Shown here: one piece after another, positions 16,801 to 21,129 of the stretch | How the letters are laid out: each line of letters begins with the position of its first letter | How positions within the stretch are numbered: position 1 is the stretch's first letter | Source of the DNA: a virus | Virus record (IMG/VR): IMGVR_UViG_3300021517_000014 | Coordinates: 1 to 35,649 of that record | DNA length: 35,649 nt | Strand: one strand, 5' to 3' | Translations under genes and position numbers: made by a program | Notes under the pieces: generated by a model | What the model was told of the DNA's origin: nothing | Databases searched by the model: none | What the model saw: only the letters and a program-made list of their open reading frames with translations

Positions 16801-17205
16801 TTAGCTTTTAAGCATCAACAGCTCGTTTACCTCTTTAGTATAATACTCTATAAGAGCGTTATAATCAACATTTTTAGTGATTTCTTTAGAGAGTTTTAGT
16901 AGTTCATCTCTTACATCTTCGCCATGTAAGTCAATTATAGCAAGTTCATGAAGATGATTTTTCCCCCTACCGTATCCATTACATCCCCAACATTGAGCAT
17001 GGCAGTTGTATTCGTGGAATCTAGTGTTGAGTTCAATCCTTGTAATCCAGTGTCCGTTTTGCATCTCTTTCCAGTGTTTGGTTGTAGGACAGGTGACACA
17101 GGTAACCATACCGTTCTCTCTTGCGTCTCTTAGTCTTATGTATTTACTAAAAACAGAGTCTGCTTTTGCTTTAAGTTTTGACGTGCTTAGTTTTTTGGTT
17201 TTCAT
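16801..17205 (-). CDS. NinG/Rap-like recombination protein
   Basis: A 134-residue protein with the order of conserved elements seen in lambda NinG (Rap): FSKYIRLRDARENGMVTCVTC, GHWITRIELNTRFHEYN, then CHAQCWGCNGYGRGKN and a helical tail. The cysteine/histidine set (CVTC, NGHW, CHAQCWGC) resembles an HNH-type zinc/nuclease centre. Lambda NinG binds and cuts branched recombination intermediates. The protein is shorter than lambda NinG (about 200 residues), lacking much of the N-terminus. It follows the ORF6C-like regulator by 2 nt and may work with the ERF annealing protein. Confidence 0.75.
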   Translation of the reverse strand: MKTKKLSTSKLKAKADSVFSKYIRLRDARENGMVTCVTCPTTKHWKEMQNGHWITRIELNTRFHEYNCHAQCWGCNGYGRGKNHLHELAIIDLHGEDVRDELLKLSKEITKNVDYNALIEYYTKEVNELLMLKS

Positions 17206-17983: not shown

Positions 17984-18229
17984 TTTAAAATCGGTTAAGT
18001 TTTGTTGTAGTTTGTCGTCTGTTAAGTCTATCTTTCTCGTTATTTCGATCAATCTGTCAAAGTTGGAATCATTATTGTTGATGTTGTAGGCCTTAATTAC
18101 GCGGCAGATGTAACCGTGAGGCAGTCCTGATTGGTGTTCCACAGTATCCGTTGCCACGCCTCGCCATTTTAATCCGTATTTGTTTTTTAGATTTTCTAGT
18201 TTTGTATATATTTCTTTTGTTGGCTCCAT
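17969..18229 (-). CDS. Small helical protein, possible DNA-binding
   Basis: An 86-residue protein I do not recognise with confidence. The part GVATDTVEHQSGLPHGYICRVIKAYN (read in two halves) could form a helix-turn-helix, with the rest helical and polar. It is the last gene before the operon terminator, its stop codon lying in the terminator stem. It overlaps the end of the cytosine methyltransferase gene by 34 nt. The start context ACTTAAAC-8 nt-ATG fits the start motif. Confidence 0.5.
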   Translation of the reverse strand: MEPTKEIYTKLENLKNKYGLKWRGVATDTVEHQSGLPHGYICRVIKAYNINNNDSNFDRLIEITRKIDLTDDKLQQNLTDFKKRAN

Positions 18230-19857
18230 TGTATTTGTTTAAGTATGTGTTTAATAATCTCACTATTAAAGGCGTTCCCACACATCTTATATTTTTGACT
18301 GTCTGATATTGGTTTCCCTTTGTGTGTTGCTTTGTCGAAATAATCATCTGGCATTGATTGGAGGCGCAAACACTCTGTCGGGGTGAGTTTTCTGACGGTG
18401 TTTTTTTTCAAATCAAGTACACCCTGTCCAGTTTTTGCTGTTTGGCATTGTGAGTTTGACCCAAGGGTGTTTGTTTTGTCAAAGTTCAAGGTTCGGTTGT
18501 AATTAGACACGACTGCGTACAGCCCAGTCTTCGCGCCCCCGCCACCGCCATTTGCCGATAGTAATATGCTTTTGCCTTCTTGCGAACAAATTCTGTCTCC
18601 TTGGCCGCCAAAGTTTAGTGAGCCGATCCTTTTTGACACATCTACGCCCTTAACATAATACTTCACGTTAACATTTTCTTCCAAAATGTCTTTCAAAATT
18701 ATCCCTCTGTCTTCTGGTTGTGGAATTTCTACTTGTTCATATTTTATTGGGGTTATTCCTCCACAACACGAACAGATATTATTCTGTCCTTTTTGCATGA
18801 ATTGCAACTCCGACAAAGTGGTTGTAAGTTCTCCAAATCGTTCGTCCCACCCTTGCTCACTGGGATTATGTGGTCTACCGTTAAGTCCTCCATAGAACCG
18901 CAAAACGAACATTCCGTGTTTATCTTTCTCCACATATCCAACAATTCCTCGTTCCCAATCATATTGATAGTTTTCTTGCCCCTTCTCCACGCCTCTCTCT
19001 GTGCCCTCCTCATTCTTACTTCGGGTTTGGAAGAGTATTTTTTGTAATATTTTAGAAAACTCTTTTTGTTGTTCAGGCGATAATTTTTGCCATACTCCAA
19101 CAATTCTTTCTTTTTTCTCTTGTAGTATTTCTTTTGGTAATCTTTCTTTCTTTGGCTCGGTTTCTTGTCGTTCTGCTTTTTGTTGATGTTCATACAATTC
19201 TCCGAGCAACATTTCTGTGTGGAGTTCTTGCGAAAAAACTCTTTGTCGCAAATCTTGCACCTTGTTTTCTTCTTTGGATTCTTCTTGTAGTAACTTTTCA
19301 ACACCTGTTCTCTGTGTTTTTGAAGTTTCTCCTCCGTGTTGTATCTCGTTAAGTAATTGCTCATACTTACAATTATAGCACAAATCTAAACGAGATGAAA
19401 TCCAAAATAATCGTTTCCTGTTTTGTGCCGACACTAAACTGGCATTTATCATTACAGGTTCTATACCCAATGCTTCTGTAATAGTACCTCTTGCTTCTTT
19501 TGGCATTGATGCGACATTTTCCAATATGAAGTATTTAGGTTTCACCTCATCTCGTATTCTTACATATTCCCAGAATAACCCCGACCTTGTCCCTTTAAGC
19601 CCTTCTCTGTTTTTTTTAGCAATAGACAAATCTTGGCACGGCGACCCGCCTATCATTAAATCTGGCCGGAAATCTACCGATAACCCCACCACGCTTCCCA
19701 ACTGTATTGTATTGGGGAAATTACCTTGTGTGACTGCAATGGCATAGGAGTCTGTTTCGCTTGCATAGTATTGCTCAATAGACATCCCAACCTCTTTTAA
19801 CGCCTGTTGTGCAACTGACATCCCATCAAACAAGCTTAAAACTTTGATTTTCTTCAT
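18196..19857 (-). CDS. dcm: DNA (cytosine-5) methyltransferase interrupted by an in-frame 624-bp insert
   Basis: A 553-residue frame with the C5-methyltransferase motifs in order: I LFDGMSVAQQAL (~9-20), IV GGSPCQDLS (catalytic Cys ~74), VI LENVASM (~112-118), VIII QNRKRLFW (~145-152), then IX RKLTPTECLRLQSMPDDY and X KMCGNAFNSEI near the end. Between VIII and IX, about residues 168-375 are a Gln/Lys/Glu-rich segment unlike any methyltransferase. This is the reading-frame shadow of an HNH endonuclease gene (18753-19364) in the +1 frame. Without it the protein would be ~345 residues, normal for the family, with KYEQ running into VEIPQPEDRGIILKDILEE. It may still methylate, since the variable target-recognition region tolerates insertions. 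It starts at TAATG overlapping the upstream stop. Confidence 0.85.
   Translation of the reverse strand: MKKIKVLSLFDGMSVAQQALKEVGMSIEQYYASETDSYAIAVTQGNFPNTIQLGSVVGLSVDFRPDLMIGGSPCQDLSIAKKNREGLKGTRSGLFWEYVRIRDEVKPKYFILENVASMPKEARGTITEALGIEPVMINASLVSAQNRKRLFWISSRLDLCYNCKYEQLLNEIQHGGETSKTQRTGVEKLLQEESKEENKVQDLRQRVFSQELHTEMLLGELYEHQQKAERQETEPKKERLPKEILQEKKERIVGVWQKLSPEQQKEFSKILQKILFQTRSKNEEGTERGVEKGQENYQYDWERGIVGYVEKDKHGMFVLRFYGGLNGRPHNPSEQGWDERFGELTTTLSELQFMQKGQNNICSCCGGITPIKYEQVEIPQPEDRGIILKDILEENVNVKYYVKGVDVSKRIGSLNFGGQGDRICSQEGKSILLSANGGGGGAKTGLYAVVSNYNRTLNFDKTNTLGSNSQCQTAKTGQGVLDLKKNTVRKLTPTECLRLQSMPDDYFDKATHKGKPISDSQKYKMCGNAFNSEIIKHILKQIQWSQQKKYIQN
18733..18744. repeat. 12-bp imperfect direct repeat, right border of the HNH insert in dcm
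   Basis: TTGTTCATATTT here matches TTGCTCATACTT at 19357-19368 in 10 of 12 bases. On the coding strand both read Lys-Tyr-Glu-Gln in the dcm frame. They are exactly 624 bp (208 codons) apart and bracket the HNH gene, as a target-site duplication would. Confidence 0.65.
18753..19364 (-). CDS. HNH homing-type endonuclease nested out of frame inside dcm
   Basis: A 203-residue protein in the +1 frame relative to dcm. An N-terminal zinc site CKICDKEF...CCSENC (~37-57) is followed by a lysine-rich helical middle and a complete HNH domain: CSFCG (~151-155), LTVDHIIPVSKGGTNDLEN (~160-178, the catalytic DH and the NL pair), and PLCRSCN (~181-187). It lies wholly inside the methyltransferase frame. The start codon sits in the first of two imperfect repeats bounding the inserted DNA. 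Its first codons contain AATTACTTAACGA, matching the box found upstream of two other genes here. No start motif precedes its own ATG, so expression may be low or from a separate transcript. Confidence 0.8.
   Translation of the reverse strand: MSNYLTRYNTEEKLQKHREQVLKSYYKKNPKKKTRCKICDKEFFRKNSTQKCCSENCMNINKKQNDKKPSQRKKDYQKKYYKRKKKELLEYGKNYRLNNKKSFLKYYKKYSSKPEVRMRRAQREAWRRGKKTINMIGNEELLDMWRKINTECSFCGSMEDLTVDHIIPVSKGGTNDLENLQPLCRSCNSCKKDRIISVRVVEE
19357..19368. repeat. 12-bp imperfect direct repeat, left border of the HNH insert in dcm
   Basis: Partner of 18733-18744. It includes the HNH start codon and encodes the first KYEQ of the dcm frame. Confidence 0.65.
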
Positions 19858-20102
19858 TAGTATATAACTCTATTAAGATCTACATTACTTAGTTCAGGGG
19901 CAAAAAGTGCCAACCTGATTTTGTATTTAGTGACTTTTAACATATTGTCTAGTCGTGGAGACTCGCCTTCTTCCAGTAGTAGCGTACGGATGAAGGTGGT
20001 CACCTGTAAGATGTTCCGCCTTATATCCTCTCCATGTACGCACTTCTCCCGCACCTCAAGCGTTAGGTCTTCTATTTCTTTGATTCTTTGTTCTGTATTC
20101 AT
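19857..20102 (-). CDS. Small protein of unknown function
   Basis: An 81-residue helical protein (MNTEQRIKEIEDLTLEVREK, DIRRNILQVTTFIRTLLLEE). No family is recognised. Its stop overlaps the dcm start as TAATG, so translation of dcm is probably coupled to it. The start context is ACTTAACGAAAAACAACAATG-like (21 nt repeated almost exactly before the gene at 20130-20279). Confidence 0.5.
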   Translation of the reverse strand: MNTEQRIKEIEDLTLEVREKCVHGEDIRRNILQVTTFIRTLLLEEGESPRLDNMLKVTKYKIRLALFAPELSNVDLNRVIY

Positions 20103-20129
20103 TGTTGTTTTTCGTTAAGTAATTCAAAA

Positions 20130-20279
20130 TTATTTAAAAATTGCTAATATTTCGTTCTTTGGATATTCCCGATAGATGCGGACTACATCTAGTATGGTTG
20201 CCTTGCCTGAGTACACTAAATGTTTGATTTCCTTCTTCTGTTTTTCTGTGAGGTCTGGTATTTGTTTTAGTGCTGTCAT
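20130..20279 (-). CDS. Very small protein, 49 residues
   Basis: A short ORF, ATG 20277-20279 to TAA 20130-20132, that reads like a compact helical protein (MTALKQIPDLTEKQKKEIKH, then LVYSGKATILDVVRIYREYP). Evidence for a real gene: it fills the otherwise empty interval, its start overlaps the upstream stop as TAATG, and it carries the ACTTAAC start box. The C-terminal half (ATILDVVRIYREYPKNEILA) could be a helix-turn-helix, but that is uncertain. Confidence 0.55.
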   Translation of the reverse strand: MTALKQIPDLTEKQKKEIKHLVYSGKATILDVVRIYREYPKNEILAIFK

Positions 20280-20536
20280 TATTGTTTTTTGTTAAGTAAT
20301 TGACACGCCGCATCATAAGTTGTCGAACGAGATTCAGATCCTTCTACATTTGATTGACTCATTACATTTAAGCATTCAAGAACCGCCTCTTCCCTTCCTT
20401 GTTGGTAGCTAAATTTGGCTTGTTCACATAACAAAGTCTTTATTGCAGGATAGCATCTTTTATCTATCTCAACTTCTTCAGGCCACAACATAAACAGTGT
20501 TTTCTCCCAACCTTTAATTGTTATTTGTTCTTTCAT
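20279..20536 (-). CDS. Small protein of unknown function
   Basis: An 85-residue protein with several conserved-looking positions (GWEKTLFMLWPEEVEIDKRC, EAVLECLNVMSQS) but no known motif. It overlaps the Dam-like gene by 4 nt (ATGA) and the 49-residue gene by one base (TAATG). Its last codons, encoding QLLNKKQ, also form the ACTTAAC start box of the next gene, so the box is partly coding. Confidence 0.5.
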   Translation of the reverse strand: MKEQITIKGWEKTLFMLWPEEVEIDKRCYPAIKTLLCEQAKFSYQQGREEAVLECLNVMSQSNVEGSESRSTTYDAACQLLNKKQ

Positions 20537-21129
20537 TGTTGTTGATTAAGTTTATAATCTAAATAGCCACAACTACACCCGACATCCTTAGACTTTAAAC
20601 AATAATCAGCGTGGCTTGTTTTTTCTCCCTCAAAAGTTCGCCCGTGATCAGTTCTCAGCCTAACCAAACACCCTTTTAATCCACAACTCATTAAATCAAT
20701 AAAACTGTCTTCATTGTATGCAATTAAACAACTTGGAGCACCAGCACTATTTTTAGATTCTTTGCCAGTCACATCATAAAATTTAATCCTGCCTTTTAAA
20801 AATAAAACTCCATAAGCTTTAGGCCACACATGTTCAAAGAATGATTTTGTTTCTGTTCTGGCAAACACAAGTGCTATTACATTTTCGTGTTGTGAACACT
20901 TTTTAAGCCACTTGCCAGTTTCGGCACCATAAGGTGGATTACAAAACACCCGTCCTTCCCAGTTTTTTGTTAAACCATCATCTAGAACAGTGTAGTGTTT
21001 TTTTGCTGTGTCCCATGGCCTAGTAATCGGAGAACATGGATCTAAGTCAAAAACCCCAAGAGCTTGAATAATATATTGAGGAGTGAGCCACTCGTCTTTA
21101 CCTTCTGTTTTTTCAAACCTTACGTCCAT
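20533..21129 (-). CDS. dam: DNA N-6-adenine methyltransferase (phage Dam type)
   Basis: A 198-residue protein with the layout of the phage DNA N-6-adenine-methyltransferase family: DEWLTPQYIIQALGVFDLDP (~12-31) at the cofactor pocket, AKKHYTVLDDGLTKNWEGRVFCNPPYG (~46-72, carrying the catalytic NPPY), ALVFARTETKSFFEHVW (~87-103), and FLKGRIKFYDV (~112-122). A second cysteine-rich tail (CLKSKDVGCSCGYL) ends the protein. It methylates adenine in phage DNA, probably to block host restriction, and sits in one operon with the cytosine methyltransferase. Its stop overlaps the next start. Confidence 0.88.
   Translation of the reverse strand: MDVRFEKTEGKDEWLTPQYIIQALGVFDLDPCSPITRPWDTAKKHYTVLDDGLTKNWEGRVFCNPPYGAETGKWLKKCSQHENVIALVFARTETKSFFEHVWPKAYGVLFLKGRIKFYDVTGKESKNSAGAPSCLIAYNEDSFIDLMSCGLKGCLVRLRTDHGRTFEGEKTSHADYCLKSKDVGCSCGYLDYKLNQQQ

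Follow-up and report, generated by a model that had tools for sequence, protein, structure and literature searches.

A C5-cytosine DNA methyltransferase gene in the DNA analysed here (a 35.6-kb virus record that encodes a terminase, a portal and a major head protein, hereafter the window) appears to harbour, at the margin of its target-recognition region, an inserted HNH endonuclease gene that is dual-coded with its host, such that one 553-aa methyltransferase would be made with neither RNA nor protein splicing, a reading to which we assign a probability of about 0.8. Mobile nuclease genes usually spare the host gene because they are spliced out of its RNA or protein, lie between genes, or split the gene in two. 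Here, the methyltransferase frame is stop-free across the entire HNH ORF. An earlier sequence-only reading had reported a 612-bp HNH ORF lying wholly inside the methyltransferase gene in the +1 frame, and we recovered its coordinates, lengths and frame exactly. The features are:

18196..19857, minus strand: C5-cytosine DNA methyltransferase ORF, 553 aa, uninterrupted across the insert; Pfam DNA_methylase (PF00145), E 4.3e-40
19369..19857, minus strand: N-terminal methyltransferase part, residues 1–163, with motifs I (FDGMS), IV (GGSPC), VI (ENV) and VIII (QNRKR)
18745..19368, minus strand: inserted segment, 624 bp, methyltransferase-ORF residues 164–371, absent from all other fetched homologues
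18196..18744, minus strand: C-terminal methyltransferase part, residues 372–553, with the target-recognition region and motifs IX and X
18753..19364, minus strand: HNH endonuclease ORF, 203 aa, 612 bp, +1 frame relative to the methyltransferase; Pfam HNH, E 5.9e-15, and HNH_5, E 3.3e-12
19194..19259, minus strand: zinc-finger-like motif (CKIC...CCSENC), HNH N-terminal residues 36–57, with Cys positions common to loci L182, L205, L208, L282 and L289
18783..18911, minus strand: HNH catalytic domain, residues 152–194 (CSFCG..DHIIPVSKGG..NLQPLCRSCN)
19357..19368, minus strand: left KYEQ repeat, AAGTATGAGCAA, which includes the HNH ATG
18733..18744, minus strand: right KYEQ repeat, AAATATGAACAA, which belongs to the methyltransferase itself (L011–L013 have KYEQVEI)
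19381..19388, minus strand: possible promoter-like TAGATTTG (Bacteroidota TAnnTTTG type), a weak match to the pattern only

The host ORF has motifs I, IV (PC), VI (ENV), VIII, IX and X in the order of a C5-cytosine methyltransferase, with all catalytic motifs retained on the two flanks of the insert, and is matched by phrog_116 across residues 1–548. Its N-terminal part shares as much as 81% identity with uninserted homologues, and pN/pS values against homologues of 0.18–0.31 for the N-terminal and 0.29–0.45 for the C-terminal part, with dS saturated in most pairs, show what appears to be purifying constraint on both. AlphaFold2 (AF2) predicted a high-confidence core (pLDDT mostly 80–98 in the N-terminal part) and an insert of helices and loops at low-to-moderate confidence, including a helix over residues 180–229 (pLDDT near 75), with confident structure resuming at the right edge of the insert (pLDDT 94–96 from residue 371). 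Taken from sequence, the methyltransferase with its insert is probably still functional.

The sequence-only reading had taken the segment for an insertion and proposed comparison with uninterrupted homologues, and these bear it out. Of the nearest homologues in IMG/VR, L011–L013 read straight across the site as QNRKRLFWVGKWNGE-KYEQVEIQQPEDRG (uninserted site GEKYEQVEIQQPEDRG; in L011, FWVGKWNGE-KYEQ-VEIQQPEDRG), L001 and L014 are continuous over it as KYKQVKIPQPED (uninserted site KKYKQVKIPQPED), and so are L027 (KYVQVEIPQPED), L017 (TYKKVEILQPED) and L010 (TYRTLEIPQPED). As these homologues do not have the segment at the site, it is therefore an insertion. It adjoins KYEQVEI, which by alignment places it directly after motif VIII and ahead of the target-recognition region, and homologues with the Gln/Lys-rich segment but no HNH frame, the outcome named as refuting, were not found among those fetched. 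The left edge could alternatively lie at 19380 if CYNCKYE is part of the element (insert of 636 bp); both candidate lengths, 624 and 636 bp, are multiples of 3, and only ~12–24 nt of the insert are outside the HNH ORF. The bracketing KYEQ repeats AAGTATGAGCAA and AAATATGAACAA are indeed identical at 10 of 12 bases and 624 bp apart, but weaker than had been presented, the DNA-level match being marginal (P ~0.07 for any equally good 12-mer in both junction regions); the identical in-frame KYEQ tetrapeptide has a chance probability of ~0.004. The left KYEQ may have been copied from the target or may belong to the 5' end of the element itself. The fetched loci contain ~220 methyltransferase N-domains, of which no other had an HNH at the same place, and querying contigs of IMG/VR and GTDB with either the HNH or the interrupted methyltransferase revealed no second copy of the insert, profile scans returning only uninserted methyltransferases or other HNHs. 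Nor did the 1.8 kb downstream of truncated methyltransferases in other loci contain a nuclease motif, except for a weak GIY-like match in L156.

The HNH protein has the DH...N...C..CN core inside two CxxC pairs, and its AF2 model (mean pLDDT 80, pTM only 0.31) combines the N-terminal zinc-finger-like part, long helices and the beta-beta-alpha fold characteristic of HNH/HNH_5 endonucleases, with the Gme HNH nickase (4h9d, E 7e-4) as top Foldseek match in the PDB. The possible promoter-like element TAGATTTG is overlapped by an extended −10 sequence, TGCTATAAT (19380–19372), 8–17 bp upstream of the HNH ATG; the window contains 38 occurrences of the TAnnTTTG pattern, and promoter and terminator scans around the HNH start gave nothing above shuffled sequences. 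The internal HNH ATG is not preceded by a Shine-Dalgarno sequence. Such sequences are nearly absent from the window genes, and for most genes on the minus strand A/T-rich sequence precedes the start, as in Bacteroidota phages.

Five relatives of the HNH share its Cys pattern, and each is inserted into a phage ParB-N4/N6 methyltransferase gene, where the linker between the ParB and methyltransferase parts lies (L182 1045–1647, L205 929–1444, L208 1468–1986, L282 1159–1767 and L289 1495–2106). In all five, the host gene is divided into two ORFs, neither of which shares more than ~52 bp with the HNH: in L282 and L289 the upstream ORF matches phrog_498 at ~33–200 and the downstream ORF at ~188–442, and the halves in L182, L205 and L208 match profiles built from those of L282 and L289. 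Both Faecalibacterium phage FP_Lagaffe and a Monoglobales phage have the ParB-N4/N6 methyltransferase intact, as a single ORF. These relatives share with the window HNH a two-part architecture and a location within phage DNA-methyltransferase genes but differ in methyltransferase class and insertion site, the host being split there and its frame open here. The HNH tree places the window HNH near these methyltransferase-splitting HNHs with weak support (97/57). With five relatives and the window HNH in such genes, this HNH group is therefore found in phage methyltransferase genes. In several of the split ParB-methyltransferases, a short peptide containing a CxxC motif is appended to the upstream half. 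It might be a conserved peptide marking the end of the element ahead of the HNH, but it is missing in L282, and the L182 version may be more like the host-gene sequence on the 3' side.

We then asked how many stops the methyltransferase frame should contain. Permuting the HNH's own synonymous codons gave 14.7 ± 2.5 expected stops versus 0 observed (z −6), and none of 20,000 HNH-preserving permutations was stop-free in the methyltransferase frame. In a context-aware null, based on the codon choice of the other window genes conditioned on the next two bases, the mean was 22.8 stops and the minimum 10. Moreover, among the 134 HNH codons able to end in T, T was used at 0 of the 55 junctions where it would make a stop (preceding AA, AG or GA) versus 36 of the 79 others (Fisher P 7.5e-11), compared with 43% at such junctions and 39% elsewhere in 28 other window genes. 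The ratio of observed to expected stops in the same frame was 1.06 for 48 other window genes pooled, and ~175 other HNH ORFs yielded no comparable case, the next most extreme having z −3.4. That the open frame is a mere by-product of the Lys-rich, A-rich composition of the HNH, such sequence having few T-initial codons in some frames and T occupying only 18% of HNH third positions, can be given almost no credence: the permutations keep the HNH's own codons, T is common wherever it is harmless, and stops are not depleted in other HNH ORFs. The permutation and junction tests refute this explanation, unless the base calls are wrong. These results show that selection kept stops out of the methyltransferase frame, and that its openness, already pointed out in the sequence-only reading along with full dual coding, is not due to chance. 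The HNH frame is likewise protected, since permuting methyltransferase-frame codons gave 5.9 stops in the HNH frame, with one or fewer in only 0.02% of cases. Elsewhere, the HNH ORFs L214 1054–1656 and L378 showed moderate depletion of stops in an alternative frame that is not open (z −3.4 and −3.2 respectively), and those in L299, L307 and L188, whose second frame is open or nearly so, were set aside, since high GC or a low expected number of stops accounts for them.

The peptide that the insert contributes in the methyltransferase frame (including IVGVWQK and FGELTTTLSELQFMQK; HNH-frame peptides, TINMIGNEELLDMWR) is largely dictated by the HNH frame, with little tuning beyond the absent stops. 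Of ~24 features tested, net charge differed, going from +7 to −5 (z −2.6), a possible shift to neutral. Such a shift, the strong selection for an open frame and the helix predicted at residues 180–229 would fit a 208-residue segment that has become a useful methyltransferase domain, for example for target or stability, with the HNH frame retained for or alongside that role; we regard this as unlikely, given that uninserted homologues keep all motifs without the segment, which is of low confidence overall and mostly HNH-dictated in composition. Two-chain action of the methyltransferase, with the open frame being incidental, has precedents in Aeh1 nrdA, in the genes split by relatives of the HNH and in split enzymes that are functional in T4-like phages (PMC2988022), but the first chain here has no terminating stop and exclusion of stops across 204 codons would be senseless for separate chains, which leaves it highly doubtful. 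Also very improbable is removal of the insert from RNA or protein as a self-splicing intron or intein. HNH nucleases are carried by group I introns and inteins, and the element begins much like the sequence on its 3' side (KYEQ), a feature also pointed out for group I introns and the ShiLan domain (PMC11855218), but an intron would not need an open host frame, and no Rfam family matched positions 18000–20200 up to E 1, the ~12–24 nt outside the HNH ORF being too little for a group I or II intron. As for an intein, the HNH is in the wrong frame, the insert has no Pfam match in the host frame, and its edge residues (Lys or Cys at the start, Ile at the end and Lys after it) misfit splice junctions. 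The distinction from introns and inteins drawn in the sequence-only reading is supported.

Insertion followed by dual coding is the likeliest history. A homing-type HNH gene would have entered the methyltransferase gene at the margin of the target-recognition region, via homing or ectopic cutting and repair, and selection for a working methyltransferase would then have stripped host-frame stops by synonymous third-position changes in the HNH. The +1 frame of the insert would encode the HNH nuclease, started at the internal ATG, and the methyltransferase frame would add ~208 residues, mostly helical or disordered, to the 553-aa chain; this double reading would be what lets the insert persist. 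We infer that both proteins, the 553-aa methyltransferase and the HNH, are made, and the HNH presumably cuts uninserted alleles at KYEQ/VEI and is copied in by repair (homing). Uninserted alleles, as needed for homing, exist, and a single inserted copy is known. Counting against this explanation are the marginal DNA repeat, the weakly supported position of the HNH in the tree, the scant tuning of the host-frame peptide and the single known copy; in addition, ~15–23 stops had to be eliminated, which raises the question of how they could be lost without a functional intermediate. By analogy with the split relatives, one possibility is that a working two-chain enzyme may have served as such during stepwise stop loss.

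The architecture itself is not new, having as precedent the ShiLan domain, first described by Arsenault, Gosselin and Gogarten (2025; PMC11855218) as a 202-aa insertion in a mycobacteriophage methylase, with a stop-free host frame, a 195-aa HNH out of frame and nothing that marks an intron or intein. Its distribution is scattered, which the authors take as homing (PMC11855218). We fetched ShiLan gp65 (JN020143, our L421) for kinship tests. Like it, the window has a stop-free insertion of ~200 aa in a phage DNA methylase, with a zinc-finger HNH out of frame and no intron or intein signature; in both, the insert is predicted as a poorly ordered excursion and its first residues resemble those after the site. 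On the other hand, the ShiLan host is an N6/N4-type methylase of 64% GC whereas the window host is of the C5 type, the HNH belongs to Pfam HNH_3 rather than HNH/HNH_5, the best blastp match (E 0.04) is not significant, and, relative to the HNH, the host frame is f1 in ShiLan and f2 in the window. Moreover, an open frame is only mildly unlikely in ShiLan (0 versus 2.3 stops expected, P 0.018), whereas the exclusion of stops is overwhelming in the window. Given the different methylase class, HNH family and phase and the lack of a significant blastp match, the window case is thus independent of ShiLan and non-homologous to it, and not a ShiLan domain by descent. A second published case, Pacc40 gp60, contains a hidden HNH insertion (PMC11855218); it too has an out-of-frame HNH-like ORF in a phage methylase, but its published description sets it apart by a 160-aa product and a helicase-methylase host. 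T4 mobA in gene 60/39 and Aeh1 mobE in nrdA are free-standing HNH insertions that split phage genes (PMC2988022), similar in that an HNH gene lies within a phage enzyme gene whose function is retained but different in that the host is broken into two chains, while the window frame is continuous.

We consider it rather probable that a second, unrelated HNH lineage has independently become dual-coding in a phage methyltransferase, with the host frame reshaped by selection (15–23 expected stops removed), and that this is a recurrent, splicing-free third strategy beside introns and inteins. Being independent of ShiLan in HNH family, methylase class and phase, the window case indicates that full frame overlap is a recurrent alternative. 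Its AT-rich setting makes selection readable from one sequence, which the GC-rich ShiLan does not allow, and the avoidance of T at junctions in nuclease ORFs offers a simple screen for further such elements.

The region is flanked in the window by genes for a Dam-type adenine methyltransferase (20533–21129, minus strand) and a NinG-like endonuclease (16801–17205, minus strand), so that, with the C5 gene, the phage carries two DNA methyltransferases. In other loci (L048–L057, L067, L071, L073, L074 and L086–L089), at least two tandem C5 methyltransferase genes occur per phage. L071, L074 and L075 had been flagged as interrupted but were rejected as tandem methyltransferases, the second of the two in L075 (4192–6995) having an in-frame, intein-like insertion right after GGSPC.
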